In this document: piece after piece, positions 25,551 to 58,178 of the stretch
Position numbering within the stretch: the stretch's first letter is position 1
How the letters are laid out: each line of letters opens with the position of its first letter
Assembly (NCBI GenBank): GCA_030692565.1
Contig: JAUYAO010000058.1
Coordinates: forward strand, 496,001 to 560,000
From: Nitrospira sp.
Lineage (GTDB): Bacteria; Nitrospirota; Nitrospiria; Nitrospirales; Nitrospiraceae
Length of the DNA stretch: 64,000 nt
Direction of reading: 5' to 3'
Notes under the pieces: model-generated
What the model was told of the DNA's origin: nothing
Seen by the model: only the letters and a program-made list of their open reading frames with translations
Databases searched by the model: none
Position numbers and translations under genes: made by a program

Positions 25551-25598
25551 TGGAGCGGGAAAAGGGATTTGAACCCTCGACCCTCGCCTTGGCAAGGC
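25551..25598 (-). repeat. attL: 3' fragment of tRNA-Gly(GCC), left island boundary
   Basis: These 48 bases are identical to 52736-52783, the part of the intact tRNA-Gly from the anticodon stem to the encoded CCA end. The sequence diverges abruptly on both sides. The fragment has the same orientation as the intact gene and cannot form a tRNA because the 5' half is missing. It is read as the attachment-site copy left by tyrosine-recombinase integration. Confidence 0.93.
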
Positions 25599-25999
25599 AC
25601 CTTAAATGTAATATTTTCAATGACTTAATCGTTATCGTCCTTGCATCAACTCGTAGGTTTTTCCAGCACTTACGAAAGGGACCGTCTATATAGACAGTAG
25701 GGTTTTTACTACCACCTCCATTGCCCTCCATTCGTACCAAGCCAAGAGTGCCGTCATACATATTTCGAGCTCAAGAGAAAATTTCATCAGCCTTGGCCAC
25801 AAGACCACAGCCTTAGGCTCGCCTGTACCTCCAGGCCGCTGGATGGCTACCTGTGACGAATAGTATGCCGTTGGACTTCGCCCATAGGCAAGCGGCCCGC
25901 ATGCACTGATCTACCCATCCATACCTTGCGTGATTTCTCGCAGGGAAAGGGGTATTCTTCGGCGGCAAAAATAGAGAAGCTTTGGAGCGTACTAAGGAT
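25599..25999. other. Left-end non-coding stretch of the island
   Basis: About 400 bp between the tRNA fragment and hsdM. Only short frames are present, one of which reads through the tRNA fragment and is not credible. No repeat, RNA gene or clear promoter was identified. It is relatively AT-rich near 25600-25780. Confidence 0.5.
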
Positions 26000-28144
26000 A
26001 TGAGCAACGGGGATCTGAACTGGATAGCGAACTTCATTTGGGGGATCGCGGACGATATATTGCGTGACCTGTATGTGCGTGGCAAGTACAGGGACGTTAT
26101 CCTGCCGATGACGGTTCTTCGCCGTCTTGATGCCTTGCTTGAGCCTACGAAGCAAGCCGTGCTCGACATGAAAAAGTCGCTAGACAAAGCAAAGATTGTC
26201 CATCAAGACCAGGCGCTCAGGCAGGCAGCGGGCCAAGCTTTCTATAATACCTCGAAGTTCACACTTCGCGACCTCAAGGCGCGAGCGAGTCAGCAGCAGC
26301 TCAAGGCCGACTTCGAGGCCTACCTGGATGGCTTTTCGCCGAATGTCCTAGATATCCTAGAAAAGTTCGAGTTTCGTAATCAGATTCCGCGTCTCTCCAA
26401 AGCCGATGTACTCGGCACACTGATCAATAAATTCCTCTCACCGGACATCAATCTCAGTCCCAATGCCGTCAAGAACAACGATGGTTCAGTCAAGCATCCA
26501 GGCCTCGACAATCACGCGATGGGGACAATTTTCGAGGAGCTGGTCCGGCGCTTTAACGAAGAGAATAATGAAGAGGCTGGGGAACACTGGACACCGCGCG
26601 ACGCCGTGAAGCTCATGGCGAAGCTGATCTTCCTGCCGATCGCGAGCAAGATCGAATCGGGCACCTATCTGCTCTACGACGGCGCCTGCGGGACCGGTGG
26701 CATGTTGACGGTCGCGGAAGAGACGCTGCAACAACTGGCGACAGAGCACAAGAAGAAGGTTGCCACGCATCTCTACGGCCAGGAGATCAATGCCGAAACC
26801 TACGCCATCGCGAAGGCCGACCTATTGCTCAAGGGAGAAGGCGACGCGGCGGATAATATTGTCGGAGGGCCGGAGTTCTCTACGCTTTCCAATGATGCAT
26901 TTCTCTCGCGGGAATTCGATTTCATGCTCTCCAACCCGCCCTATGGAAAGAGCTGGAAGAGCGATCTCGAACGGTTGGGCGGAAAGGACGGGATTAAGGA
27001 CCCGCGCTTTGTCATTCAGCACGCGGGCGATGCTGAATATTCGCTCATTACCCGGTCGAGCGATGGCCAGATGTTGTTCCTGGCTAACATGCTCTCGAAG
27101 ATGAAGCGAAGGACCAAGCTTGGAAGCCGGATCGCCGAGGTGCATAACGGGTCGTCGCTGTTCACCGGCGACGCCGGCCAGGGCGAGAGCAACATTCGCC
27201 GCTGGATCATCGAGAACGATTGGCTCGAAGCTATCGTCGCCCTGCCGCTGAACATGTTCTACAACACCGGCATCGCGACCTATATCTGGGTTTTGACGAA
27301 TCGGAAGCCTGAACATCGCAAGGGCAAGATTCAGCTCATCGACGCGACGCAGTGGTATAAGCCGCTTCGTAAAAACCTCGGCAAAAAGAACTGCGAGTTG
27401 TCCGAGGAAGAGATCCAGCGGACCTGCCAAACCTTTCTAGATTTCAAGGAAACCGAGCAGTCGAAGATTTTCCCCAACGCGGCCTTCGGCTATTGGAAAG
27501 TGACGGTCGAACGGCCGCTGCGTCTCCGCGTCGAGCTGGATGCAAAGTCGCTCGCTGTGTTTCGAGCTGCCTGCGAGGAAGAGGAAGAAGCTCCTGTGGC
27601 GAACCTCGTGGAGCGTGTCGCCGCTTTGCTTGGCCCCGGCCCCCATCTGAATTTCAATGCCTTCATAGATGAGGTCGAGGCCGACGCGGACAAGCACAAC
27701 ATTAAGCTGACGGCGTCACGGAAGAAACTACTCAAGGACCGACTGGCGAAGCGAGATGAGAAAGCTGCCGAAGTTATCAGCAAGATCTATAAGGCAGGGA
27801 AGACAAAGCCCGATCCGCTGCGAGGACTGTTCGAGACAACGATCAAAGGCAAACCCTGTCTCGTGGAATACGAGCCTGATAGCGATCTTCGTGATACGGA
27901 GCAGATTCCGCTGCTGGAGGAGGGCGGCATCGAAACCTTTCTTCGCCGCGAAGTGCTTCCCCACGTGCCAGATGCCTGGTATGACGCGGAGAGCGTCAAG
28001 ACCGGTTACGAGATCAGCTTCACCCGCTATTTCTACAAACCGCAGGCGCTTCGTACGCTGGAGGAGATTCGCGCCGACATCTTGGCCCTGGAGAAGGAGA
28101 CCGAGGGGCTTCTGGGTGAAATCATTGGGGTAAAGGGCAAATGA
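26000..28144 (+). CDS. hsdM: Type I restriction-modification methyltransferase subunit
   Basis: About 714 residues, longer than the usual 500-550. N-terminal HsdM helical domain is followed by the N6-adenine methyltransferase core: motif I DGACGTGGML at about 227 and motif IV NPPYGKSW at about 311. The C-terminal extension is Glu/Lys-rich. With HsdS it methylates the target site, and with HsdR it restricts unmodified DNA. ATG 26000 follows AAGGAT; TTG 25982 would add six residues. The stop overlaps the next gene (ATGA), so the whole operon looks translationally coupled. Confidence 0.93.
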   Translation: MSNGDLNWIANFIWGIADDILRDLYVRGKYRDVILPMTVLRRLDALLEPTKQAVLDMKKSLDKAKIVHQDQALRQAAGQAFYNTSKFTLRDLKARASQQQLKADFEAYLDGFSPNVLDILEKFEFRNQIPRLSKADVLGTLINKFLSPDINLSPNAVKNNDGSVKHPGLDNHAMGTIFEELVRRFNEENNEEAGEHWTPRDAVKLMAKLIFLPIASKIESGTYLLYDGACGTGGMLTVAEETLQQLATEHKKKVATHLYGQEINAETYAIAKADLLLKGEGDAADNIVGGPEFSTLSNDAFLSREFDFMLSNPPYGKSWKSDLERLGGKDGIKDPRFVIQHAGDAEYSLITRSSDGQMLFLANMLSKMKRRTKLGSRIAEVHNGSSLFTGDAGQGESNIRRWIIENDWLEAIVALPLNMFYNTGIATYIWVLTNRKPEHRKGKIQLIDATQWYKPLRKNLGKKNCELSEEEIQRTCQTFLDFKETEQSKIFPNAAFGYWKVTVERPLRLRVELDAKSLAVFRAACEEEEEAPVANLVERVAALLGPGPHLNFNAFIDEVEADADKHNIKLTASRKKLLKDRLAKRDEKAAEVISKIYKAGKTKPDPLRGLFETTIKGKPCLVEYEPDSDLRDTEQIPLLEEGGIETFLRREVLPHVPDAWYDAESVKTGYEISFTRYFYKPQALRTLEEIRADILALEKETEGLLGEIIGVKGK

Positions 28145-28707
28145 CAGTGCACAAGCACAACGAGGGCTTGAAGATAGCGAGATTGCTAATGGTGTTGAGC
28201 AGCATTTCTCCGCTGTTCATTCTTTGGGCCATTCGCGGCAATAAGCTTATCTCTGACGCGTATCTCTTCGCTTTGTGCGCCTTCATGGTGGTTGTGCCTA
28301 ACGTGTTTCTGTGGTTGCGAATTGCAACCGCAAAACGATTAAAAGAACAACGGGAACTCGTCGTCGGTAAGGCTGAGGATCATCGAGATCACCTTCTTGT
28401 GTATCTATTTTCCATGTTGCTACCCTTTTATGCGGCTGAATTGGCAACGTGGCGGGACTTAGCGGCCTTGCTGGTTGCACTCGCATTTATCGTCTTTCTG
28501 TTCTGGCATCTTAATCTGCATTACATGAATGTGCTGTTCGCTGCCCTTGGGTACCGCGTCTTCACGATCTACCCACCCTCGGATGCGAATCCCTTGAGCG
28601 GAAAAATAAGCCAGGTGCTTATAACTCGTCGAGTAGGCTTATCGCCGGAGCAACACATCAATGCCTATCGCCTAAGTGACACGGTCTATTTCGAGGTAAA
28701 TGAATGA
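28141..28707 (+). CDS. Four-helix membrane protein, KwaA-like
   Basis: A 188-residue protein with four predicted membrane helices at about residues 13-31, 37-62, 84-102 and 106-130. A soluble tail of about 50 residues (VFTIYPPS to DTVYFEVNE) follows. Start overlaps the hsdM stop and the end overlaps the next gene, each by 4 bp. The combination of a four-helix protein of about 190 residues directly followed by a DUF4868-type protein is that of KwaA-KwaB of the Kiwa anti-phage system. The KwaA call rests on topology, size and partner rather than on sequence motifs. Being inside hsdMSR is unusual. Confidence 0.6.
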   Translation: MTVHKHNEGLKIARLLMVLSSISPLFILWAIRGNKLISDAYLFALCAFMVVVPNVFLWLRIATAKRLKEQRELVVGKAEDHRDHLLVYLFSMLLPFYAAELATWRDLAALLVALAFIVFLFWHLNLHYMNVLFAALGYRVFTIYPPSDANPLSGKISQVLITRRVGLSPEQHINAYRLSDTVYFEVNE

Positions 28708-29624
28708 GTCTGAGCTTCGACTTTCAGAATGTCGTTATCACCGAGTTCGGAATAGGACAGGATGATGGAGCCGGTCAGGCTTTTGCCTTTGTGTCCGTTG
28801 ACGGAAATGTGCAGGGTGCTCTTCGTGAAATGTCTCAATCGACTTGGACTGCGATGCAGAAACAGGCCACGTCACCTAGTAAATATGAGCCTTCTGAAAA
28901 GTATTCAAGTTCCGAGCATGTGTATTTGCCTCTGGCTGATCAGCTCGCAGCACGCATGCATGATCTGCATACGGCCAATAATCTACCCGTGGATGGTCAT
29001 GCGCTTGGGAACCCGTCCGAGGTATTTTGCTACTTTGCACGATTCACAGACGGGCAGCAGCGACGTCTCACTGCGCTGAGAAGGGCGACGCAATTTAAAG
29101 GCGTGCTTAAGAGTCGGCTGATCCATCTCGTAAGTGATGCGTTGAAACTCGTCGAGGACAAAGTCTTCAAGCTCGATGTCGATTTCGACTTGCTCATTGA
29201 TGCCCACAATCTTCACATCCTTCGACCAAGCGGCTTCGAGTTTGTAAGTGAGCTCCAACAAGCAGTTCTTGCGGCGGTGCCCACGAACATTGAGGCAATC
29301 AAACAAGATTTAAAGTTCGTAGACTTTGCTACCATCGCAGAATACGCTGGCCAGCATCCGCGTGCAGCACGTTACTTGGCCTCTATTCGCGCCCAAAAGG
29401 AAACGAAGCAACTCGATAAAGGTTTGCTAAAGAAGCACTGTAAGAGAATGGGGATCGAGGTCAAAGAGTCTAAGAGCAAGCTAGGGGTCGATGGTGATGA
29501 TGTCATGCGATTCCTTGAAGTCTTGGACCGCCGTCAATTTGAATTGGAGCTTGTGAAGGGCAAACCAGAACGATTTAAGGCCGGTAGTCGATCACGGCTG
29601 CGTAACAGTGGCGGAGAAGCTTAG
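28704..29624 (+). CDS. DUF4868/KwaB-like protein
   Basis: A 306-residue soluble protein. The middle contains a DUF4868-like block: RRATQFKGVL, then VFKLDVDFDLLID, then LHILRPSGFEFV, the pattern of beta strands around a buried Asp seen in KwaB proteins. The end is basic (FKAGSRSRLRN). KwaB binds DNA and works with membrane-bound KwaA to block phage replication. The start overlaps the membrane-protein stop, and the stop overlaps the hsdS GTG start by one base. Assignment is from motif recall and gene order; a profile search would settle it. Confidence 0.65.
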   Translation: MSLSFDFQNVVITEFGIGQDDGAGQAFAFVSVDGNVQGALREMSQSTWTAMQKQATSPSKYEPSEKYSSSEHVYLPLADQLAARMHDLHTANNLPVDGHALGNPSEVFCYFARFTDGQQRRLTALRRATQFKGVLKSRLIHLVSDALKLVEDKVFKLDVDFDLLIDAHNLHILRPSGFEFVSELQQAVLAAVPTNIEAIKQDLKFVDFATIAEYAGQHPRAARYLASIRAQKETKQLDKGLLKKHCKRMGIEVKESKSKLGVDGDDVMRFLEVLDRRQFELELVKGKPERFKAGSRSRLRNSGGEA

Positions 29625-31057
29625 TGATCGCCGACCTCAAGCCTTATCCAGCCTATAAGGACTCCGGAGTGCCGTGGCTGGGGAAGGTGCCGGAGCATTG
29701 GGAGGTACGGCGAATCAAGACGCTATTCCGTGAAAAGGATGAGCGTAGCGCCACCGGTAGCGGCGCTCTACTTTCGTTGACCAGAGCGAAGGGAATCATT
29801 CCGCAAGCGGAGGCCTCGAACCGAATTGCGAGTGCCGAGGATCTATCGAAGTACAAGGTTTGCCGACCCGGCGATCTGGTGATGAATCGCATGCAGGCGT
29901 GGTCTGGAATGTTCGCGCTCTCGACTTACACGGGAGTGATAAGCCCTGATTACAGCATCTTTGGTACGATCGACAAATCTGACGTGAAGTTCTTTGAGCA
30001 TCTCTTCAAGACCCCGGCTGTTGTGGATCAGTTCGCGCAGCGTTCGAAGGGCATCGGGAGTGGCTTTAACCGCCTGTACACACCAGACTTTGGGGCAGTG
30101 CCTGCAGTCGTCCCACCTCTTTCGGAACAAGTAGCCATCGTGGGCTTCCTCGAGCATGCCGAACGGCGTATCAAGCGCTTTATCCTTGCCAAGCAGAAAC
30201 TGATCAAGCTCCTGGAGGAGCAGAAGCAGGCCATTATCTACCGGGCTGTTACCCGCGGGATCGATCCGAATGTCCGTCTCAAGCCTTCCGGCGTCGAATG
30301 GCTAGGGGAGGTACCGGAGCATTGGGAGGTATGGCAGATTGGTCATTTCTCTCGCGTTGGCAACGGGTCCACACCGTCACGCGGTAATTCAGCCTACTGG
30401 AGTGGCGGTTACTATCCGTGGCTCAATAGCGCATACGCGAACCAAGAGAGTGTCACGCAGTCGGATCAATTTGTCACCGACACTGCCTTGCGGGAATGCC
30501 ATCTTCCCATTGTCCCGTCCGGAAGCGTGTTGGTGGCCATCACGGGACAGGGCAAGACTCGTGGGAAGGCGACGGTACTTCGTATTGAAGCTACCATCAA
30601 TCAGCATATGGCTTTCATTACGCCGAAGGCTAAGATTGCATCTGCTGAATATGTACGGCTGGCCTTGCATGGCTCCTATGCGCAGCTCCGTTCAATCAGC
30701 GACGACTCCGGGAGCACAAAGGGTGCAGTGACTTGTGCTGATCTCAAGCACTTCAGATTGATTCTGCCGCCGCCTCCTGAACAAAACGTGATATTGGCAG
30801 CGGTAGAGAATGAAACTTGTGCGTGTAGCGCAGCCATCAACCGTGCGCATCGGGAGATTGCCCTCCTCCGCGAATACCGCACCCGCCTGATCGCTGATGT
30901 GGTCAGTGGGAAACTCGATGTGCGAGAAGCGGCGGCCAAGCTGCCGGAAGCAACTGATGAGCCTGAACTGCTCGATGACGCGGAGGCTCTGGCCGAGGGC
31001 GACGAGGAAACGGGAGACGTTGATCTCGATGCGGTGACCGAGGAGGCCGAGGCGTGA
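29624..31057 (+). CDS. hsdS: Type I restriction-modification specificity subunit
   Basis: A 477-residue protein built as two half-repeats, each opening with nearly the same segment: SGVPWLGKVPEHWEV (about 15) and SGVEWLGEVPEHWEV (about 222). Each half holds one target recognition domain followed by a conserved helix (QKLIKLLEEQKQAI in the first). It therefore recognises a bipartite target. The last 40 residues form an acidic tail. Translation starts at GTG overlapping the previous stop. The DNA encoding the two half-repeats is also similar, so recombination between them could alter specificity. Confidence 0.93.
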   Translation: MIADLKPYPAYKDSGVPWLGKVPEHWEVRRIKTLFREKDERSATGSGALLSLTRAKGIIPQAEASNRIASAEDLSKYKVCRPGDLVMNRMQAWSGMFALSTYTGVISPDYSIFGTIDKSDVKFFEHLFKTPAVVDQFAQRSKGIGSGFNRLYTPDFGAVPAVVPPLSEQVAIVGFLEHAERRIKRFILAKQKLIKLLEEQKQAIIYRAVTRGIDPNVRLKPSGVEWLGEVPEHWEVWQIGHFSRVGNGSTPSRGNSAYWSGGYYPWLNSAYANQESVTQSDQFVTDTALRECHLPIVPSGSVLVAITGQGKTRGKATVLRIEATINQHMAFITPKAKIASAEYVRLALHGSYAQLRSISDDSGSTKGAVTCADLKHFRLILPPPPEQNVILAAVENETCACSAAINRAHREIALLREYRTRLIADVVSGKLDVREAAAKLPEATDEPELLDDAEALAEGDEETGDVDLDAVTEEAEA

Positions 31058-39762: not shown

Positions 39763-39883
39763 GACGAGCCATCCCACTTTTTGACCAGCGCGTCTCATAT
39801 TGAGAAGCAGTGTTGCACAGAAGGTTTTAAGACGAGCCACCCTCGTGAGCCCCACGTGGGTCGTCAACCAAGGAGAAGGGGTT

Positions 39884-40648
39884 ATGAAAGGACATATCGT
39901 GCTGCGGGTACTCAAGAACCGGATCGCCTATGAGGCCAATGTTCGGTACAAGGGGAAGACCATCTACATCGGGAGATTTTGTGAAGAACAGGACGCCAAG
40001 AAGGGCCAGCGTGAGGCCTACAAGCTTCTGAAGCAAGGCCAACGGCCGAGTCCCCCGCCGGTGCCGAGAATGCAGGTGGGGGATGAGGGGGTTACGTCGC
40101 GGTCCCTAATCGATGGCACGATCGTCTACGACATTAATGTCACGGTCAAACGCAAGAGGGACTCCGTGCAATCCTTTCTCACGAAAGTGGAAGCGATTGC
40201 GGCGCGGACAGCCTGGCTGGAGCACATCAATGCGGGCGATCTGACCTTCCGGCCGACCACCCAGCCGTTGCCTAAACACAAGCCGTTGGGGGCCGAGTTG
40301 AGGATGGATCCTTCCCCGCCAGCCGACATTCTGTTTGTGGACTACGCCTATCGTTGGTATCAGGCCCGGAAGGAGTTGTGGGCAGCCTGGACGCTCTATG
40401 AATATCGGTCTGCAGTCAGACGCTTCTTAAATCCGGTCTTAGAGACGGTACCTGTGATCGCTGTCAGCGAAGGCCATCTCAAGACACTGGACGCCATGCT
40501 GGCAAGCCACAAGGTCACCCAGAAACGTCGGACCAAGATTCGCCGGGCCCTTGCGAAAATTCTGCATTCGACGATCGTCGACGGGTTGCGGACGAGCCAT
40601 CCAGCCTCCTACGCCTGGTGTCGCACGGGACAGGTCACACAACCATGA
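39884..40648 (+). CDS. Integrase-like protein without catalytic domain (1)
   Basis: A 254-residue protein with ribosome site AGGAGAAGGGG. The N-terminal part (YEANVRYKGKTIYIGRF, then a second copy-like DGTIVYDINVTVKRKRDSVQ) resembles small arm-type DNA-binding domains of phage integrases. Residues about 145-230 (FVDYAYRWYQARKELWAAWT, YEYRSAVRRFL, KVTQKRRTKIRRALAKIL) resemble the helical core-binding domain. It then stops, with no Arg-His-Arg-Tyr catalytic part. Its stop overlaps the next start (ATGA). It could be a DNA-binding helper for the integrase two genes downstream. Confidence 0.6.
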   Translation: MKGHIVLRVLKNRIAYEANVRYKGKTIYIGRFCEEQDAKKGQREAYKLLKQGQRPSPPPVPRMQVGDEGVTSRSLIDGTIVYDINVTVKRKRDSVQSFLTKVEAIAARTAWLEHINAGDLTFRPTTQPLPKHKPLGAELRMDPSPPADILFVDYAYRWYQARKELWAAWTLYEYRSAVRRFLNPVLETVPVIAVSEGHLKTLDAMLASHKVTQKRRTKIRRALAKILHSTIVDGLRTSHPASYAWCRTGQVTQP

Positions 40649-41082
40649 TGACGGTATCGCTGACGCTCAACGAATTCGGTCGGAGATGGTTTCTCAGGCA
40701 TGCGGGTACATGGAGTCCATCCAGAGGTCGTCGCATCCGGCGGTGTAGCCTGAGTCAAATCATGCCCTCACTTGGCTCTCTATTGCTGTCACGGCTCGAT
40801 GTCGGAATGATTCAGAAGTGGCTCAACGATCTTGTGTTAAAGGAGTCAGCTGTGAGCGGTCATCTCGCCGCATATACGCTTCTGGAATTACTGGAAGCGG
40901 CCCACGCCCAGAGCCTGGTGTCGACGGATCAGATCGCCCAGTGTCGAGAGATGCTGTCCTACCCCGCAGTCACCGCGTTGTACAAACGAGACCGGCATAC
41001 CGACGATCTCTGTGACCCTCAACAGCAGGACAGCCTCATGGATGTAGGAGAAAGGGAACAAGACAATGAAACCGAAGACTAA
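40645..41082 (+). CDS. Integrase core-binding-like protein without catalytic domain (2)
   Basis: A 145-residue protein starting at tandem ATG codons that overlap the previous stop. The first half (LTLNEFGRRWFLRHAGTWSP, SLSQIMPSLGSLLLSRLDVG) looks like the SAM-like core-binding region of tyrosine recombinases. The rest is helical with an acidic end. No catalytic residues are present. It overlaps the full integrase downstream by 17 bp. Three overlapping cistrons imply stoichiometric co-expression. Family assignment is inferred. Confidence 0.55.
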   Translation: MMTVSLTLNEFGRRWFLRHAGTWSPSRGRRIRRCSLSQIMPSLGSLLLSRLDVGMIQKWLNDLVLKESAVSGHLAAYTLLELLEAAHAQSLVSTDQIAQCREMLSYPAVTALYKRDRHTDDLCDPQQQDSLMDVGEREQDNETED

Positions 41083-42271
41083 CCCCGTTTTCACTCCCGA
41101 GCACCAGGTCGTGGCGCCAGGTCGAGACGACATGCCCACGAACTCTGGTCAAGCGTCTCGTCACGAGGGGAGTGTACAGGCACAACCCGCACCCATCATC
41201 CCGCTTTTCCCGTCATCCGATGACCCCGATGAGTCAGCGGGGCGTCTCACGCCGCAGTCCACCGTGGCCGACTTAGGACTGTTTGTGAAACGTCGGTATT
41301 GGGGCGGGATGAAGCACAGTGCGATGGTCAACTACACCAATATTCTCAAGTACAACATCTTTCCAGCCCTGGGCCACCTGCCCCTTGAGGCCCTTGAGGA
41401 TTTGGAGCTGATTGAAGACCTCATTATCGAGTGGCGGGAGAGCGCACTGAAGCGCGGGACCATCAGTAGTCGCATTTCTGTCCTGGTCTGGCTCTACGAT
41501 GCGGCCATCGCTCGGGATCTGATCAAGAAGAACCCCCTTAAGCAGGCCAGAAAGTTGTTGAAACAGAAAAAGTGGAAGAAATTTCGTGCTACCCCCTTTA
41601 GCGCCGAAGATGAGTGCCAGCTGGTGGAAGCGTTTAAAACTCTGGCACCGCGCTACCATTGCCTGTTGTTACTCTTGCTCAGGACAGGCATGCGGATTGG
41701 CGAAGCGTTGGCCTTAAAACTCGAGGACATCGATTGGAAACTGAGAAAGATCCGGATCAAGGCCACCTGGACGTGTGGGATCGAGGACACGCCCAAATAC
41801 GAGTCGGACCGGGTCATTGCCATCACCGATGACCTCTTCCTCGTCTTGCAAGCCTATGTCAAATTTCTCAAGTATGAAGAACAAACCAGCTGGTTGGCGC
41901 CAACCGTCTTGCTGTTCCCGGGAAAAAACCGAGAGACCCCCCTCAGTCTCGCCGCGTTCCGACGGGACGTGTGGCAAGTCCTGCTGGCGGATCTCGGCAT
42001 CCGCTATCGCCGCATTCACGACTTGCGCCATACCTTTGCCACCTCCGTCCTACTAGCTGGAGCCCGCATTGAATTAGTGAGTAGTTGGCTCGGCCATACG
42101 GATGTGGGCTTCACGTACCGGACGTATTGCCACCTGTTAGACCAAGCACATGACGAGATCGTCAAATATATCGGAGTTGCGAGTGCACGGCCCCTTCCCC
42201 TCCAGACCTGTCCCGCGTGCCGGCGCCCGCTGGACACGGATCTCTCGCCTGCCCCCTGGGCGGTCCCCTGA
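41066..42271 (+). CDS. Tyrosine recombinase/integrase
   Basis: A 401-residue site-specific recombinase. Core-binding domain spans about residues 68-165. The catalytic domain has Arg in LRTGMRIGEAL (about 206), HxxR in IHDLRHTFATS (about 317), LGHTDVGFTYRTY (about 341) and the nucleophile Tyr just after. A short tail with CPACRRPLDTD could form half of a zinc site. About 65 Pro/Ser-rich residues precede the core domain. It is the third gene of an overlapping operon whose first two products look like integrase pieces. It could mobilise a nested element or the whole island. Confidence 0.88.
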   Translation: MKPKTNPVFTPEHQVVAPGRDDMPTNSGQASRHEGSVQAQPAPIIPLFPSSDDPDESAGRLTPQSTVADLGLFVKRRYWGGMKHSAMVNYTNILKYNIFPALGHLPLEALEDLELIEDLIIEWRESALKRGTISSRISVLVWLYDAAIARDLIKKNPLKQARKLLKQKKWKKFRATPFSAEDECQLVEAFKTLAPRYHCLLLLLLRTGMRIGEALALKLEDIDWKLRKIRIKATWTCGIEDTPKYESDRVIAITDDLFLVLQAYVKFLKYEEQTSWLAPTVLLFPGKNRETPLSLAAFRRDVWQVLLADLGIRYRRIHDLRHTFATSVLLAGARIELVSSWLGHTDVGFTYRTYCHLLDQAHDEIVKYIGVASARPLPLQTCPACRRPLDTDLSPAPWAVP

Positions 42272-45222: not shown

Positions 45223-45741
45223 TTATTGTCCCTTCATTCCCAACATGGTGACCGCCTCGGTGACAGTAATCATGACGGTCAATGGATCGACTGGTGATGC
45301 CACAAACCCCCATTCCTCATAAAAGTGCTTCGCTGATTCCGAGAGGGCATGGACGAGAATAGCTCGGATACCGGCGATCTCCGAAGCTTGGACGGTCCGC
45401 AGAATCGCATCGCGCAGCAGGCCCGTTCCGATGCCGCGGCGTTGATGTTCCTTATCAACGGCCAGCCGGCCGAGCACCATGACCGGCAGAGGGTCCGGCA
45501 TGTTGCGCCGCACGCGCCCCGTCGCTTCCACCAACGCGACGGCGCCAACGGCGAGGGTGTAGTAGCCAACGACCTTTTTATCTGCACAGACCACATAGGT
45601 GCGCGAAGCCCCGCTGGCTTCATTCTTGAGCGCGCGGCGCCGCAGCCATTCATCCAGGACCGGCTCGCCGGACTCAAAGGCGGACACGTCATGCTTCGCA
45701 GACAGTTTTTCTGGCGGACGTATTTCAGCGGGGCGGCTCAT
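45223..45741 (-). CDS. tacT: GNAT toxin of TacT/AtaT type
   Basis: A 172-residue acetyltransferase with the TacT layout: FESGEPVLDEWLRRRA, ASRTYVVCADKKVVGYYTLA, acetyl-CoA loop EHQRRGIGTGLL, and the catalytic Tyr region HFYEEWGF. Such toxins acetylate aminoacyl-tRNA and stop translation. The start overlaps the antitoxin stop by 4 bp, the standard arrangement. All key residues are present, so the pair appears intact. Confidence 0.88.
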   Translation of the reverse strand: MSRPAEIRPPEKLSAKHDVSAFESGEPVLDEWLRRRALKNEASGASRTYVVCADKKVVGYYTLAVGAVALVEATGRVRRNMPDPLPVMVLGRLAVDKEHQRRGIGTGLLRDAILRTVQASEIAGIRAILVHALSESAKHFYEEWGFVASPVDPLTVMITVTEAVTMLGMKGQ

Positions 45742-46031
45742 CGCTCCCAGGGTGCACGTGTGTGAAGGAGGCGTCGCAGCTTCGGATTGCTCGCCGGAGG
45801 ATGGTCGAGCATCGCTGTAAATCGCTCGAATGCGTCCTTGGAGAGGGCAAAGTAGCGCCGGTCGAGCAGGACCGTTTCCGCTTCCCGGCAGACGGTTTCG
45901 AGCATGAAATCAGAGCGACTCTTTCCCAGCGCTTCCGCCGCCCGGTCGATCAGCCCTTTCTGTTTCTGACTGGCGCGCAGGTTGATCGTTTCACTTCGCC
46001 CTGTTGTCCCCGGTGCTCCCGTCTTAACCAT
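45738..46031 (-). CDS. tacA: DUF1778 (TacA-type) antitoxin
   Basis: A 97-residue protein with a ribbon-helix-helix N-terminal part (SETINLRASQKQKGLIDRAA, GKSRSDFMLE) and a C-terminal toxin-neutralising segment (LSKDAFERFTAMLDHPP). The start is preceded by GGAGG. The complex with the downstream GNAT toxin is expected to repress its own promoter through the palindrome at 46057-46074. Confidence 0.85.
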   Translation of the reverse strand: MVKTGAPGTTGRSETINLRASQKQKGLIDRAAEALGKSRSDFMLETVCREAETVLLDRRYFALSKDAFERFTAMLDHPPASNPKLRRLLHTRAPWER

Positions 46032-46055
46032 GGCCGCCTCCTTGTGTATACGACA

Positions 46056-46084
46056 AGTGTACATGACCGTACACACGTTGTAAA
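46056..46084 (-). promoter_or_regulatory. tacAT promoter with operator palindrome
   Basis: On the minus strand TTTACA and TACACT are separated by 17 bp. Within the spacer and overlapping the -10 lies a perfect palindrome, GTGTAC-N6-GTACAC (46057-46074). This is the expected layout for autorepression by the antitoxin-toxin complex. Confidence 0.6.
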
Positions 46085-46259: not shown

Positions 46260-46532
46260 ATGTCTGACCAGAGCAGCCCATTCATGACCCTCAAAGAGGC
46301 TGCGGCCTTTCTCCGCTACTCCCCTAGCACGCTCTATCAGCGTGCGGACATCCCACGAATAAAATTACCCGGATCAAAAGACTGGCGCTATGAGAAACAA
46401 GCGCTCCTCGCCTGGGCCGCATCTGCTGTGCCCCAACGTCTTGAGCCGCAGCATGAGCCACCCCAACTTGCCGCAGAGAATCCGCAGGCACCGCGCCCGG
46501 TGCTTCGTCGCCGCAGTTCACGCTATCGCTAA
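46260..46532 (+). CDS. Excisionase/helix-turn-helix DNA-binding protein
   Basis: A 90-residue protein with AAGGAG before the ATG. It carries a MerR-like HTH_17 domain (FMTLKEAAAFLRYSPSTLYQ, then KLPGSKDWRYEKQALLAWA), the form used by excisionases and recombination directionality factors. A Pro/Arg-rich tail follows. It lies 16 bp upstream of an integrase, so it probably controls excision or integrase expression. Confidence 0.8.
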   Translation: MSDQSSPFMTLKEAAAFLRYSPSTLYQRADIPRIKLPGSKDWRYEKQALLAWAASAVPQRLEPQHEPPQLAAENPQAPRPVLRRRSSRYR

Positions 46533-46548
46533 AAAAGGACTCCCTCCG

Positions 46549-47628
46549 ATGGTTATCCGGCACCGCACGACAAAGAAAGGGCTCGCCAGCGACCTTGACT
46601 TCTGGTGGAAGAAGGGACGCTACCGGCCCACCCTTGGTTATGACCTGGACCCTGCAGAAGAGATGATCGAAGCGGGGAAAATGATTGAGCGCATTAAAAC
46701 TGGCCAGCTCAATGGAGGGTGCACGCGTAGCGGTGGAACCACCATGGCCGACTTTCAGGCGAGCTATCTGTCGGAGCTCAAGGAACGGGGTGTGCTGGAT
46801 CTGAAGAGACCGGAGCGGGTGCTCGAGACCTATCTCGTTCCCGCCTTTCCCCAGCCCATGCGGGACATCTCGTACAGCGACGGACAGGCCTATATCGCGA
46901 AGCGTCGCAAGAAAGGCGCATCGGATGGCACCATTGCCCGCGAATGGACGATTCTTCTGAGTTTGATGAACTTTGCTGCGAAAGTTGGAGAAATCCCGGC
47001 CAATCCCCTGCAAGGGGTCTCGGCGCCAAAGAGTGGGGTGCGCGATCGCATGCCGACCGCCGAAGAAATCGCTCGTATCTTCGCCGTCGCGACGGATCGG
47101 CTTCAACGCGCTGCGATGGTGGCGATGAACTGTGGGTTGAGAGAAGAAAAAGTGTGGGCGATCCGGCCAAGTTGGATTGTGCAGAAAGCCGATGGGCCCT
47201 GGCTGCAGTTGCCGCCTGCAAGATCCAAAAAGAAAGGGAATCCCACGTTGCTCCCTTTGAACCGCTTCGCCTATGCGGCGCTCACTGCCGGCGAGCCGTC
47301 ACCAAACGATGACCGCGTGTTCTATGAGTGGTCGGACAAACATGCCCTGGGCAAGGCATGGTCACGAGCGACAGATGCGGCAGAGATTGAAGATCTACGA
47401 TTCCATGATTTGCGGCGATGGTTTGCATCGATTTTGGAAGACTTGGGTGACGGAGAGGAGGAAGAGGCGGTTCCAAGAGAGGTCGTGAAATACCTTCTCG
47501 GGCATCAACCTGCCGATACACTGGAACGGCACTATTTGGTTCGATCAAAAGGGTGGGCCAAGAAGCTGCGTCGGGCGGTGGAGCAGCTGGGCGATCGGTA
47601 TAAGCAGTTCGTCCTCGAAAGGGAATAA
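46549..47628 (+). CDS. Phage-type tyrosine integrase
   Basis: A 359-residue integrase; AAGGA precedes ATG 46549, whereas the longer open frame overlaps the excisionase gene. Catalytic residues: Arg in NCGLREEKVWAI (about 195), HxxR in FHDLRRWFAS (about 285), LGHQPADTLERHY (about 316) with Tyr nucleophile. It is the best candidate for the enzyme that inserted the island into tRNA-Gly, since it is the integrase nearer the intact tRNA and is paired with an excisionase. About 5 kb of defence genes now separate it from that end. Confidence 0.88.
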   Translation: MVIRHRTTKKGLASDLDFWWKKGRYRPTLGYDLDPAEEMIEAGKMIERIKTGQLNGGCTRSGGTTMADFQASYLSELKERGVLDLKRPERVLETYLVPAFPQPMRDISYSDGQAYIAKRRKKGASDGTIAREWTILLSLMNFAAKVGEIPANPLQGVSAPKSGVRDRMPTAEEIARIFAVATDRLQRAAMVAMNCGLREEKVWAIRPSWIVQKADGPWLQLPPARSKKKGNPTLLPLNRFAYAALTAGEPSPNDDRVFYEWSDKHALGKAWSRATDAAEIEDLRFHDLRRWFASILEDLGDGEEEEAVPREVVKYLLGHQPADTLERHYLVRSKGWAKKLRRAVEQLGDRYKQFVLERE

Positions 47629-47757: not shown

Positions 47758-47815
47758 TTAGGCCGCCATGCGGCCGGAAGAGACACATGATTCGTCTGGG
47801 CATTTCCATCTTCCA

Positions 47816-48728
47816 ATGATTCGATTTAGGCGATTTACGGGCCAGCTTCTCGACGCTTGGTTAATTAATCAAGGCATTGTCAGTACGCATCCGCATTACC
47901 GACTGAGGGTTTGGCGCGAGAATCGTTCTGGTCTGGCTGCGATCCGAGCCGAGCTAATTGCCTACATAGAGGAAGCGCTCGATGACGCGCGTCGGCGGGT
48001 CCGGCGCGGGTTTGAAGACAACCTCTCGCCCTTTAACGACCCCATGACAGATCCAGCAGCGAATTATCCTGCGCTACTTCATCGCATCACGCTGCAAGGC
48101 TATTGGGGGGAAACTCTCGCGGTTCTCGCGGTCGAGCATTGGGGGGCTCACGGCCATACAGATTGGAGAGTTCCAGCGTTTCTCTTCCGTCTACACGATC
48201 AAGAATTTCAGCATCTCGAGTCGATCAATGAGCGCGTTCTTGCCGGGGAGACCTACGACCCTGATCGCATTGCTGAGCGACGCCCTGGCCGTACGGGCGA
48301 TGACGGCCTAGCGTTCCGCGTGAACGGTGAGAACACCGTCACCGATGTTCTGACCATTGAGGCCAAGTGTCTTGCTCGAAATAATAACGATAAGATCCGA
48401 GAAGCACACGAGAAGCTCGCAGCGGGCTCGATGAGACCCTCGGGTGTCCGGGAACTTATCAATCTCCTAGCTGAGTATGCCACGACCGATGCTCAGGCGT
48501 GGCACGAAGCGTTGCTCAAACTGTGGCGGGATGGTTATCGGGGTGCGAAGCGGTACGACGCTGTCGGATATACCTGTGGGAGTATTCCCGTTCGGAATGG
48601 CCGTGTGGCGTGGTTACCCGTAGACGCACCCCATCCAGCCTATACCAAGGCACGAAGACTTGAGGGCATGGAGTTTCCAGTTCGAAGACCTGACCACCAT
48701 CATCGACACGCTCTACCGAGGAGCTTGA
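47816..48728 (+). pseudogene. HamA/AbpA-like nuclease gene with a one-base frameshift
   Basis: Without correction the frame runs to 48796. The body (GYWGETLAVLAVEHWGA, then GDDGLAFRV and VLTIEAKCLARN) fits a DUF1837-type protein with a PD-ExK nuclease core: Asp in GDDG and Glu-x-Lys in IEAK. Past 48666 the frame becomes basic and unlike protein (RRPDHHHRHALPRS), while the neighbouring frame reads WSFQFEDLTTIIDTLYRGA and stops at 48728, just before the helicase start. Removing one G from GGG at 48664-48666 restores this end. Start could also be 47768. The nuclease role and Hachiman relation are inferred. Confidence 0.6.
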
Positions 48729-48729
48729 G

Positions 48730-51700
48730 ATGCCGAACGCAGCCACTATCGAGGTTGCGCGCGAGGTCCGTCACAGGCTCGCGGGTAGTGCCCTGACCGA
48801 AAGACAAGCCAAGCTCTACAGTCAGCGTTTGCGCCGAGACATGGGGCGTGAGGGCCTAGCAAGCTTTGCGCCTGCAGACGTAGATGCTTATCTCGACGAA
48901 GCAATACTGCTACTGCATTGTGGCCTACTTGAACGGCGTGCAGACCGGGCGAGCGGCTGGCGCGATTCCATAAAACGGGCGGCAGAGATCTTGGAGTGGT
49001 TATCTCAATCCAGTTTGAAGCCACCTGGGGCACCGCTGCATCTTCTTGCCGGGGCGGCCTATCAGCTCGCAGACTATCCAGCCATGGCACTTGGCCACCT
49101 CCGCTATGTGCCAAACGATGAGCCGATGTCCATCATATTGCGGGAATTTTTACGGGCAGATTTTCCGGCGACACTAGAAGCGACGCACGGCTTTTGGCTG
49201 AATCAACGAGCATTTGGAGGCACGAATCGGATCGACGCAGCAGATCTGACGGCCCACACTTTTCAGCACGTTCTCATGTGCATCGGAACAGTATGTAACT
49301 ATCTACGGATGGGTAGAGAAAGCATGACGGATCGAGCTCTTACAAAGCTCGAGAACCTTGCGTCGAGCTTTCTCCACAGCCATGATCCTTATTCGTATCT
49401 CCTTGCGGTACTCACAGCTGCAAGCTGCCGACAGTTTGTTGAGTCTAGCCTCTGGCCTCAGGTTGAGCGCCTCCGCGAAGTTTCCACAGTTGCAGCTAGC
49501 GCGGCATTAACCCAGTTTGCACGATCCGCCTTTGTCAACCGCCGCGCACTCATCTGGCCGGCGCAAGCTGCAGGCATCGAACGCTTGCGTGAGAACTCCT
49601 CGTTCGTTCTTTGCACACCGACCGGATCGGGTAAGACTACCGTTGCGACTCTAGCCTTGGTACAGGGCTTGTTTGCCGCGCCGCCCGAAGTTCCGCTTGG
49701 GCTTGCTCAGATTGGACTGGGAAACTTAGTCCTTTATCTTGTGCCGTCACGCGCACTTGCAGCTGAAGTCGAAGGTAGGCTTGCACAGGATCTAAAAGGT
49801 ATTGCTGCGGAACCAATTATGGTGACAGGCCTCTACGGCGGCGTCGACTGGGGTCCAACCGACGTCTGGCTGCAGACAGATCGGGCCACCATCGTCATCT
49901 GCACATTCGAGAAGGCTGACGCCCTGTTACGTTATCTCGGCATCCTCTTCCTTGGCCGAGTTCGCATGGTGGTTATTGATGAAGCACACATGGTCGAACA
50001 AGATCGGGCTCGTCTCACTGGACTTGAAGATGGCTCGTCACGCGCGTTCCGTCTTGAACATCTAGGATCCCGCTTGCTACGGGCCCGCAACGATTACGGC
50101 TTTAGGGTACTGGCCCTCTCGGCAGTCGCGGCTCGGGCAGCTCCAGCTTTGGCCCGATGGATCACTAGCTCGACGGATGCAATCCCGACCACATCGTCCT
50201 ATCGCAGCACTAGGCAGATGCTTGGACGACTTGAGGTAAGCGCTGCAGGCCAATACACCATCCGTTATGATTTGATGGATGGTCGATCCCTAAAGTTCGA
50301 CGACGAACGTCCGGGAGATACACCATATGTCCTCAGTCCGTTTCCTCAGCTGCCCGGCGGGATCGATGAGAATCAAGGGCCTGAGGTACAGATGCGGGCT
50401 CCAACCCTATGGGCTGCTCTGCAACTTGCTGCTGAGAGACCGGATGGATCGAAACCGTCTGTCTTGATCTCATTGACGCAGAACGTTGAAGCATTCTCTG
50501 CAACATGCGCAGACCTCATGGAGTATTGGTCGGAGAATACGCTTCCCAACTATCGAACCCTTGACGAGACCAATGAAGTATGGGTTCGGTGTCTTGCCTG
50601 CGCAGAGGATTACTTTACGGCGCAATCTGTGGAGTATCGACTGCTTCGTCGGGGGATAGCTGTCCATCATGGGAAGATGCCTGGCCTTCTCGCTAGACGG
50701 CTAAAGGCCGTTATTGATCGAGGCCTTGTACGCATCGTCATCGCAACCTCGACGCTTTCCGAAGGCGTAAATATTCCCGTGAACTTCCTGTTGATCCCCA
50801 GCGTCTATCGCGGGCCAACAGTAATGAGCCTGCAAGAATTTACAAATCTGATCGGTCGAGCTGGACGTCCTGGGGTTTCTGCCGAAGGTAGTGCGCTTGT
50901 CGTCCTGCCAGAGCGGACTGTGATTCGGGGTCGCCTTGGCCGCCCCAGGCTGGCTCCCAGCCGACAATGGGACGGTTATGAAGGATTGGTAGCCGGCATC
51001 GAGGAGACGACCATCGCATCCAGGGAAGGGACACCGGAGGATGAAGCATCAAGTCCCCTTGCCCACCTGCTTCGTGCCCTTGAAGCCGCATGGATACAAC
51101 TGACGGGCGGCGGCAACTCCGAGGACTTCACGACCTGGCTGGAACGCACGGCCGTTATCGGCATTGATGGAGAAGCTGGCTCGGCTTACAAATATCTAGA
51201 CACACTCGATTCCTTCCTGATCGCAGCGATTCAAGAGGTGGAGGACTTGCGGCTTGTGGAGTTGGCACCTGATCAACTTGAGGCGGAACTCGCCGCAATT
51301 TGGCGCCGAACATATGCATTCGCGTCAGCCCAAGAGGAGTCACGCCTGGCTGCGATATGGTTGGCACGTGGTCGTGTGATCAAAGCGCAGTACCCGGACA
51401 CAATCCAACGCCGCCGCATCTACAAGACAAGTTTGTCACCGCGTTCAGCGACGAGTCTTCTGGATCTTGTCGAAACCGTTCGCGTCGCGCTTCAGAGTGG
51501 CGCAGACTATGCTCGGTGGGCGCCCGAACGACGATTTAGTTTCATTCGTGACATTCTCGCTCTTCTCTCGCAGGTGCCCTCCTTCCGAATCTCAACTGCC
51601 TTAGGACGTAGACGGAACTTCGAAGATTGGCCAAAATTACTACGCTGGTGGTTGGCAAAGACTACCTTGTCGACTCAGCCGCAACCAAATGAGATTCCGG

Positions 51701-52314
51701 GCTGGTACGACTTCGTCGCGCAGAATTTCATTTACCGAGGGGCTTGGGGTTTAGGCAGTCTGATCGGTGTTTTACTAGACGAAGCTGAAGCGGAGCAGCC
51801 GATACACGCCCTTGAAATCGGCGATTGGCCACGAAGTGGCCTACCCTGGATCGCCTTCTGGATTAAGGAATTGATTACTTGGGGTACGCTCGATCCTGTC
51901 GCCGCATTCTTGCTTGCCCGGGGAGATGCCGTTGATCGCTCTCAAGCTGAGGAGGTAGCTCGTGGCTACTATGACCGTTTCCCAGAGGACACTGATGCCA
52001 ACGATGTCTTGGATCCGCGTACAGTGCGTGACTGGTTTGACGTTCGACGCCTGGCTTTAGAAGGAACTCAGACAGTCCGAGAATTTGTCATCGCTGTTGA
52101 TCTTGTGCGCCCGGTGACCGAATATCGACTCCCTCGTCTTCTAGTATCGCCGCTTGAGGATGAAGGCCAGCTGATTTGGGTCAATTCCGCCGGCTACATG
52201 GTTGCGCGAAGCGAGAAACCTCATGATTGGCCAGACAATATTTCGACTTTCGAGTTTGAGCTCGATGCCCTAGATACCAGAATTGTGGGCCATCCTTATC
52301 TCCGACACACGTAG
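48730..52314 (+). CDS. Large SF2 helicase, HamB/AbpB-like
   Basis: A 1194-residue protein. An N-terminal domain of about 270 helical residues is unrecognised. The helicase core has Walker A TPTGSGKTTVA (about 298), DEAH box VIDEAHMVEQ (about 416), ALSAVAARA as motif III, HHGKMPG (about 645), ATSTLSEGVN and motif VI NLIGRAGRPG (about 706), the Ski2-like pattern. About 450 C-terminal residues are unassigned. It follows the nuclease-like gene by one base after frameshift correction. This nuclease-helicase order matches Hachiman and AbpAB anti-phage systems; the helicase is larger than usual. Confidence 0.8.
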   Translation: MPNAATIEVAREVRHRLAGSALTERQAKLYSQRLRRDMGREGLASFAPADVDAYLDEAILLLHCGLLERRADRASGWRDSIKRAAEILEWLSQSSLKPPGAPLHLLAGAAYQLADYPAMALGHLRYVPNDEPMSIILREFLRADFPATLEATHGFWLNQRAFGGTNRIDAADLTAHTFQHVLMCIGTVCNYLRMGRESMTDRALTKLENLASSFLHSHDPYSYLLAVLTAASCRQFVESSLWPQVERLREVSTVAASAALTQFARSAFVNRRALIWPAQAAGIERLRENSSFVLCTPTGSGKTTVATLALVQGLFAAPPEVPLGLAQIGLGNLVLYLVPSRALAAEVEGRLAQDLKGIAAEPIMVTGLYGGVDWGPTDVWLQTDRATIVICTFEKADALLRYLGILFLGRVRMVVIDEAHMVEQDRARLTGLEDGSSRAFRLEHLGSRLLRARNDYGFRVLALSAVAARAAPALARWITSSTDAIPTTSSYRSTRQMLGRLEVSAAGQYTIRYDLMDGRSLKFDDERPGDTPYVLSPFPQLPGGIDENQGPEVQMRAPTLWAALQLAAERPDGSKPSVLISLTQNVEAFSATCADLMEYWSENTLPNYRTLDETNEVWVRCLACAEDYFTAQSVEYRLLRRGIAVHHGKMPGLLARRLKAVIDRGLVRIVIATSTLSEGVNIPVNFLLIPSVYRGPTVMSLQEFTNLIGRAGRPGVSAEGSALVVLPERTVIRGRLGRPRLAPSRQWDGYEGLVAGIEETTIASREGTPEDEASSPLAHLLRALEAAWIQLTGGGNSEDFTTWLERTAVIGIDGEAGSAYKYLDTLDSFLIAAIQEVEDLRLVELAPDQLEAELAAIWRRTYAFASAQEESRLAAIWLARGRVIKAQYPDTIQRRRIYKTSLSPRSATSLLDLVETVRVALQSGADYARWAPERRFSFIRDILALLSQVPSFRISTALGRRRNFEDWPKLLRWWLAKTTLSTQPQPNEIPGWYDFVAQNFIYRGAWGLGSLIGVLLDEAEAEQPIHALEIGDWPRSGLPWIAFWIKELITWGTLDPVAAFLLARGDAVDRSQAEEVARGYYDRFPEDTDANDVLDPRTVRDWFDVRRLALEGTQTVREFVIAVDLVRPVTEYRLPRLLVSPLEDEGQLIWVNSAGYMVARSEKPHDWPDNISTFEFELDALDTRIVGHPYLRHT

Positions 52315-52735: not shown

Positions 52736-52810
52736 TGGAGCGGGAAAAGGGATTTGAACCCTCGACCCTCGCCTTGGCAAGGCGATGCTCTACCACTGAG
52801 CTATTCCCGC
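52736..52810 (-). tRNA. tRNA-Gly (anticodon GCC)
   Basis: A 75-base gene that folds into a full cloverleaf: acceptor GCGGGAA/TTCCCGC, D arm GCTC/GAGC, anticodon stem TCGCC/GGCGA around loop TTGCCAA, and T arm GAGGG/CCCTT with TTCAAAT. The CCA end is encoded. Bases 52736-52783 form the right-hand attachment site, and the identical 48 bases occur at 25551. Integration restored the gene. Confidence 0.96.
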
Positions 52811-52866: not shown

Positions 52867-53365
52867 GCAGCTCATTCCAAGAAATTGGTTGAATCAAGCA
52901 GCTTATGAATTGGGCCACAAAGGGCTAAGTCGTTACCAAATGGTAGCGCGCTATATTTGCAGTCTGAATAATATACAACACATTGTTTTTATGGAGTGTG
53001 TTGCGAGTATGCCTTACCCATACTAAGGCCATTGGTACATGAACTACTCATTGATGGCGTTACATTGAATTCTGATCTTACTGCGACGGTTGATCATATT
53101 CATTTTATATAACAGTAGTTTGAAGATTTGATTGCATTGCGGTTTTTGGAAAATGCGATGGTTTGGATATTGCGATACTGAAGTCCTGCTATGTCCAAGA
53201 ACATTCACCAGATGTCTAACGGGATCAAGAATCACGAGCTTGATTTAGCTAAGCACGAGAGTGGGTTCTTGGGCAGATCCATCAGGAAGGGGGGTGGTGG
53301 GGTTCAGTTGTGCGGAAGTAAGGGTACGCGGGCTCTTTGAGCCCTCAACTTAGGAGGTGTTCACA
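52867..53365. other. Upstream region of nxrA
   Basis: About 500 bp, AT-rich between 52870 and 53240, with no supported gene. It should hold the nxrAB promoter, but no convincing hexamer pair was found. A perfect GGGCTC-TTT-GAGCCC hairpin (53330-53344) sits just before the nxrA ribosome site and probably lies in the mRNA leader. Confidence 0.5.
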
Positions 53366-56888: not shown

Positions 56889-58178
56889 ATGCCAGAAGTT
56901 TATAACTGGCAACTGGGACGGAAGATGCTGTATCCCTACGAGGAACGGCATCCGAAGTGGCAGTTTGCCTTTGTGTTCAACATCAATCGGTGCTTGGCTT
57001 GTCAGACCTGTTCGATGGCCGACAAGTCGACCTGGCTCTTCTCGAAGGGTCAGGAATACATGTGGTGGAACAACGTGGAAACGAAGCCCTACGGCGGATA
57101 TCCACAGTTCTACGACGTGAAGATCACCCAGCTCATCGAGCAGGTGAACCCGGGTGGCCAGGTGTGGAACGTCCGCGTGGGACGGAAGCACCATGCGCCC
57201 TACGGCGTGTTCGAAGGTATGACCATTTTCGACGCCGGCGCCAAAGTGGGCCAGGCGGCGATCGGGTACATTCCGACGGACCAAGAGTGGCGGTTCGTGA
57301 ACATCTATGAAGATACGGCGACCTCGATGCGCGCCCTCGTGGAAGGCATCGACAAGACCGGATTTTCACGGGACGAACCGTGGAAGATGACGGGCAGCAG
57401 TCTGCCGGAGCATGAGACGTTCTTCTTCTATCTCCAGCGGATTTGCAACCACTGCACTTACCCGGGCTGCTTGGCAGCCTGCCCGCGCAAGGCGATCTAC
57501 AAGCGGCCGGAAGACGGCATTGTGTTGATCGACCAGAATCGTTGCCGCGGGTACAAGAAGTGCGTGGAGCAGTGCCCGTTCAAGAAGCCGATGTATCGTG
57601 GCACGACACGCGTGTCTGAAAAGTGCATCGCGTGCTATCCGCGCATCGAAGGGAAGGACCCGTTGACCGGTGGCGAGCCGATGGAAACGCGCTGTATGGC
57701 GGCCTGCGTCGGAAAGATCCGTATGCAGAGCCTGGTGCGCATCGGTGAGGACGGTCTCTGGGCGGAAGATCGGTGGCATCCCCTGTACTACACGATTCGT
57801 GTGGAGCAGGTGGCGCTCCCGCTGTACCCACAGTGGGGCACTGAGCCCAACGGCTTCTACATCCCACCGCGGCACAGCCCCCGTGGCTATGCGCGGCAGA
57901 TGTTTGGCCCGGGCGTGGACAACGCCATCGAGAAGTATCTCGTGCCCAGCCGCGAACTGTTGGCGGTGCTCCAGCTCTGGAGAGCCAGTCAGCAGATCGT
58001 CTTCCGGTACGACGTCATCCCTGGTCCGAAGGTGTTCGAGACCCAGATCCACGGTAAGCGTTTCGAGATGTATAACGATACCGTGCTGGGCTTCAACAAG
58101 TCGGGCAAGGAAGTGGCGCGTATTCAGGTCGAAGAGCCGATCTACATTCGGCCGGCCGAGCGCGTAACCTGGCTGTAA
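56889..58178 (+). CDS. nxrB: Nitrite oxidoreductase beta subunit
   Basis: A 429-residue iron-sulfur protein passing electrons from NxrA. Four cluster motifs are visible: CLACQTC near residue 33, CNHCTYPGCLAACP (about 182), CRGYKKCVEQCP (about 218) and CIACYPRIEG with CMAACVG (about 243-275). In the first motif the position of the fourth Cys of NarH is Asp (CSMAD instead of CSVTC). No signal peptide is present, so export would be by hitch-hiking with Tat-targeted NxrA. AAGGAGG precedes the ATG. A strong hairpin follows. No gamma subunit or TorD-type chaperone is adjacent. Confidence 0.96.
   Translation: MPEVYNWQLGRKMLYPYEERHPKWQFAFVFNINRCLACQTCSMADKSTWLFSKGQEYMWWNNVETKPYGGYPQFYDVKITQLIEQVNPGGQVWNVRVGRKHHAPYGVFEGMTIFDAGAKVGQAAIGYIPTDQEWRFVNIYEDTATSMRALVEGIDKTGFSRDEPWKMTGSSLPEHETFFFYLQRICNHCTYPGCLAACPRKAIYKRPEDGIVLIDQNRCRGYKKCVEQCPFKKPMYRGTTRVSEKCIACYPRIEGKDPLTGGEPMETRCMAACVGKIRMQSLVRIGEDGLWAEDRWHPLYYTIRVEQVALPLYPQWGTEPNGFYIPPRHSPRGYARQMFGPGVDNAIEKYLVPSRELLAVLQLWRASQQIVFRYDVIPGPKVFETQIHGKRFEMYNDTVLGFNKSGKEVARIQVEEPIYIRPAERVTWL

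Follow-up and report, generated by a model that had tools for sequence, protein, structure and literature searches.

The analysed window is a 64,000-nucleotide stretch of a Nitrospira sp. contig (JAUYAO010000058.1, positions 496,001 to 560,000), and all positions given here are counted from its first base. On its forward strand, a small nuclease-like ORF, here referred to as hamA, starts with an ATG at 47816 and runs, as sequenced, to a stop ending at 48796 (47816..48796), with an alternative upstream ATG at 47768. It encodes GDDG and IEAK motifs and is followed on the same strand by an intact Ski2-like helicase ORF of 1194 aa (48730..52314), referred to as hamB. Both ORFs had been described in the original prediction and were confirmed by their coordinates. 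The spacing of one base that it gave between the two genes is correct for the reading frame of the family, in which the hamA stop (TGA, 48726-48728) lies one base ahead of the helicase ATG at 48730, and incorrect for the ORF as sequenced, which overlaps the helicase ORF by 67 bases. Directly upstream of the pair, a tyrosine integrase is encoded on the forward strand (46390..47628, PF00589).

The pair lies at the right end of the cargo of an integrated defence island, since the region is flanked by tRNA-Gly repeats and the tRNA-Gly site is intact in other Nitrospira. The two 48-bp repeats are identical, stand 27,185 bp apart and belong to the tRNA-Gly(GCC) gene in front of nxrA; the left copy (25551..25598) marks the island boundary, while the right copy (52736..52783) lies inside the intact tRNA-Gly(GCC) on the reverse strand (52736..52810), which served as the integration site. 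The island thus delimited measures 27.2 kb (25551-52783) and lies beside nxrAB-like genes, recognised from sequence, with an nxrA-like ORF at 53357 and an nxrB-like ORF at 56889. In another four Nitrospira genomes, the same left flank is followed immediately by an intact tRNA-Gly. At two of these empty sites the start of nxrA follows over the full tested length; of the remaining two, one aligns over the first 70 bases only and the other is on a contig that ends before nxrA. G088 and G257 keep just the 48-bp part at this left flank, which suggests other insertions at the same site.

Elsewhere in the island, a complete Kiwa system (KwaA, 1e-94; KwaB, 3e-135) was found at 28141-29624, inside a type I restriction-modification operon and between its hsdM (25982-28144) and hsdS (29624-31057) genes. 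At 45223-46076, a TacA1-type antitoxin precedes a GNAT acetyltransferase, and the two are likely a toxin-antitoxin pair. Three successive short ORFs with end-to-end overlaps occupy 39800-42271, with weak Phage_int_M matches in the first two and the catalytic domain in the third; they represent either several recombinases or one integrase that is broken.

The helicase is a normal-sized HamB. HamB1 models ranked first in PADLOC (1e-56), and the best match in the PDB was the HamB of the E. coli Hachiman system (8vx9_B, 1174 aa). A profile of ten helicase relatives matched 8vx9_B at 3e-59 over positions 60-1026, well past the helicase core, and reached HamB residue 991 of 1174, while hhalign of the helicase family against six database-annotated Hachiman HamBs gave 2e-72. 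Over the aligned parts, the window HamB shares about 23-28% identity with canonical HamBs, and it has a DEAH motif whereas E. coli HamB is reported with DEGH. The helicase had been described as oversized; since the six annotated HamBs measure 1111-1199 aa, this description was rejected, and the extra N- and C-terminal regions that had been left unassigned are most probably standard HamB domains.

In the solved structure, HamB is composed of a HamA-binding N-terminal helical bundle (NAH), a core at residues 286-731, and, further along, WH*, CAH and a terminal OB-like part (PMC12278908). The window helicase follows this layout. Approximately residues 1-270 (48730..49539, forward strand) correspond to the NAH bundle by profile, model and fold alignment, the profile match to HamB beginning at position 60 and the region being all-helical in the low-confidence predicted model (pLDDT 50). 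The core covers approximately residues 271-731 (49540..50922), with TPTGSGKT at 296, DEAH at 417 and GRAGRPG at 709. The C-terminal region (50923..52311, with an approximate boundary) probably corresponds to the WH*, CAH and OB-like parts; it shows helices and then strands at the end in the same model, and its OB-like part is putative. In the fold comparison with this model HamB came first, with 616 residues aligned starting from residue 20, whereas for most other structures mainly the core was aligned, beginning at about residue 238.

The original prediction was right to call the protein Ski2-like, as seen from both profile and PDB matches. Hel308, Slh1 and Brr2 also match the core. The gene could then be a Ski2/Hel308-like housekeeping repair helicase lying next to an unrelated nuclease, with no role in defence. 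We consider this highly unlikely. With the profile of relatives, HamB (204 bits) outscored Slh1 (157 bits) and Hel308 (111 bits); the NAH bundle is common to the window helicase and HamB and is lacking in other Ski2 helicases; the partner is HamA-like; and matches were found in only 4 of the 296 genomes of the phylum, in addition to mobile elements.

The small protein is a HamA that is barely detectable by sequence. The window protein (P0001) matched neither Pfam HamA (PF08878), nor NCBIfam, nor any PADLOC HamA model, and PF08878 also missed all ten relatives tested, although a single-sequence match to it reflects a detection threshold and does not define Hachiman. As the small protein alone showed no HamA match, its homology was tested through its relatives. 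Five of the ten relatives tested reached PADLOC HamA1, and a relative from a third Nitrospira (33% identity) matched it at 6e-5. The family profile found HamA (8vx9_A) as its first match in the PDB (E 4.5e-4), with the family EAK motif aligned onto HamA E138-A-K140. By hhalign against ten canonical HamAs, the family profile gave a probability of 98% and an E-value of 1.5e-13 over 253 columns, while all controls (one reversed and 20 column-shuffled) had E-values of at least 0.086.

The fold agrees with this assignment. The predicted model of an intact Syntrophaceae relative had HamA as its top Foldseek match, and it aligned structurally with 8vx9_A at Z 13.1 over 220 residues (model pLDDT 49), which supports, with a low-confidence model, the PD-ExK fold proposed earlier. 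Seven residues are invariant across 19 sequences, six canonical HamAs included: P85, G95, E99, G161, D163, E182 and K184, as counted from the ATG at 47816. On the forward strand of the window, the codon of E99 in the G-x-x-G-E motif (48110..48112) is equivalent to HamA E85, that of D163, the catalytic Asp of the GDD motif (48302..48304), to HamA D119, and the catalytic E-x-K, E182-A-K184 (48359..48367), to HamA E138/K140 by profile alignment. In the E. coli Hachiman system, the E138A,K140A substitutions in HamA abolish defence (PMC12278908). By fold alignment the family shares approximately 14% identity with E. coli HamA, below detection by Pfam and NCBIfam, and the segment separating G-x-x-G-E from GDD is longer.

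The other system named in the original prediction, AbpAB (E. coli K-12 yfjL-yfjK; PDB 8zue), also consists of a nuclease and a Ski2-like helicase, has a HamA-like domain and is considered a variant of Hachiman (PMC12278908). If the window pair were of this type, we would expect a nuclease with a Cap4-like domain and an inactive HamA domain, as in AbpA (PMC12278908), together with a short Ski2 helicase. The HamA-like domain of AbpA was indeed the next-best fold match of the Syntrophaceae-relative model (8zue_A, Z 7.8; next chain, Z 5.7), although hhalign with the single AbpA sequence was uninformative against each of the two HamA profiles. However, the nuclease of the relatives is a single protein of approximately 303 aa with no added domain, Cap4-like or other, its HamA-type catalytic residues including E-x-K are intact, and the gene upstream of the window pair is an integrase. 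Moreover, AbpB has 729 aa versus 1194 aa for the window helicase, with just 94 residues alignable by BLAST. An AbpAB-type system is therefore very improbable here. The nuclease-protease Hachiman, HamMAB, has in common with the window pair the logic of an effector controlled by HamB, but differs in that its HamA is joined to a trypsin-like protease and has lost the D-GEXK motif, and in that a separate MBL-fold nuclease, HamM, is encoded upstream (PMC12799240), whereas the window pair has no protease fusion, keeps E-x-K and has an integrase upstream.

The closest known system is E. coli HamAB (PDB 8vx9, 8vxa, 8vxc and 8vxy; PMC12278908), with the same gene order, a PD-(D/E)xK HamA bearing D and E-x-K, and a Ski2-like HamB of similar size with the same N-terminal bundle, core and C-terminal helical part. 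We thus interpret the window pair as a divergent Hachiman system (HamA-HamB), with a probability of roughly 90%; it is divergent yet ordinary Hachiman, with its HamA side under-annotated.

The window copy of hamA carries one extra base. DNA alignment placed a one-base insertion within 48674..48678 (forward strand) that none of the five compared relatives has. At this site the window gene leaves the family frame and its last 17 or so residues become an off-frame tail, which replaces the conserved end of the five relatives (from MEFQ through LYRGA and the stop). Judging by the predicted structure of an intact relative, the segment that is lost contains the C-terminal core helix. We take the TTT-C at this site to resemble a known kind of slip sequence; a conserved programmed frameshift with a +1 ribosomal slip is nevertheless unlikely, because the insertion is missing from each of the five relatives.

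It may be that the window hamA is damaged, or the extra base may be an assembly error. In the first case the pair would be Hachiman by descent and its window copy a recent pseudogene, broken and possibly inactive owing to the C-terminal frameshift, which would leave HamB without an active effector. Both the insertion unseen in relatives and the exchange of the conserved HamA end for an off-frame tail point in this direction. On the other hand, no other lesion was found in the window hamA or hamB, hamB is intact across its 1194 codons, hamA is, frameshift aside, 80% identical to an intact relative in another Nitrospira genome, and a single assembly error would look identical. Overall, we place a recent pseudogene slightly below even odds.

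Intact HamA-like relatives of 303-305 aa were identified in that other Nitrospira, in a Syntrophaceae MAG, in a Bryobacterales MAG and in the third Nitrospira mentioned above, and the gene is also present on plasmids of Nitrobacter, Rhizobium, Calothrix, Mesorhizobium and others. In the window and in the relatives examined, which belong to several phyla, the hamA-like and hamB-like genes are adjacent and in the order hamA-hamB, and in these relatives their ends overlap or nearly touch. Among 23 plasmid records bearing the HamA-like gene, 22 also have a HamB-like gene. The only fusion found among plasmid records is on a plasmid of Calothrix sp. PCC 6303 (L021, 7989-12692), where HamA and HamB are joined in the same order in one ORF of 1567 aa. 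Defence genes neighbouring the relatives include type I restriction-modification (G277), HmaB/DUF499-type (G289) and LmuB-type (Nitrobacter) genes. The HamA-like gene is labelled 'aminotransferase' on several alphaproteobacterial plasmids (records H6, H7, H9-H11, H13, H15, H20 and H22), apparently a misannotation spreading across records.

Scans of viral contigs with A1 and with L025 as queries added no new relatives, and a search of phage records found none, while scans with A2 and A3 together yielded two prophage-like pairs, L025 and L034. In the latter, a prophage-like contig (IMGVR_UViG_2856009825_000003), the HamAB pair belongs to the second subclade and has an integrase-like ORF and a candidate defence protein (PDC-S06) as neighbours.

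In the HamB tree, which is unrooted and contains long branches, that of AbpB being the longest, 13 members formed one group with a support of 100/100, a stem of 2.25 changes per site and two subclades. Independent lines of evidence from sequence, structure, synteny and tree support the divergent Hachiman subtype that the original prediction had offered as one option. Perhaps this clade of 13 is also functionally distinct, with another DNA trigger or another step in HamA activation, and has been largely missed by annotation because its HamA falls under profile thresholds; we consider such a functionally separate subtype rather unlikely. If it were true, HamA could not be activated by complete release, given the single-polypeptide sensor and effector of Calothrix.

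Family membership, domain layout, catalytic residues and gene linkage of this clade are those of Hachiman. In the characterised system, HamB keeps HamA restrained while surveying DNA, and aberrant DNA leads to HamA activation and to the destruction of cellular and phage DNA (PMC12278908). By homology, sensing, activation, DNA destruction and defence would operate similarly in this clade. HamA would act as a PD-(D/E)xK DNase effector and HamB as a Ski2-like helicase that serves as the sensor and keeps HamA inhibited through its N-terminal helical bundle. HamB would patrol DNA and engage damaged or processed DNA arising during phage replication, upon which ATP hydrolysis and a domain shift would activate HamA. 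The active nuclease would then degrade both phage and host DNA, and the infection would be aborted.

These results extend Hachiman to a deep clade of divergent members. Since the HamA-like gene is called 'hypothetical protein' or 'aminotransferase' in most of the annotated records seen, Hachiman counts are underestimated in genomes carrying this clade. The natural fusion in Calothrix provides a simple construct to ask whether HamA must leave HamB in order to cut DNA.
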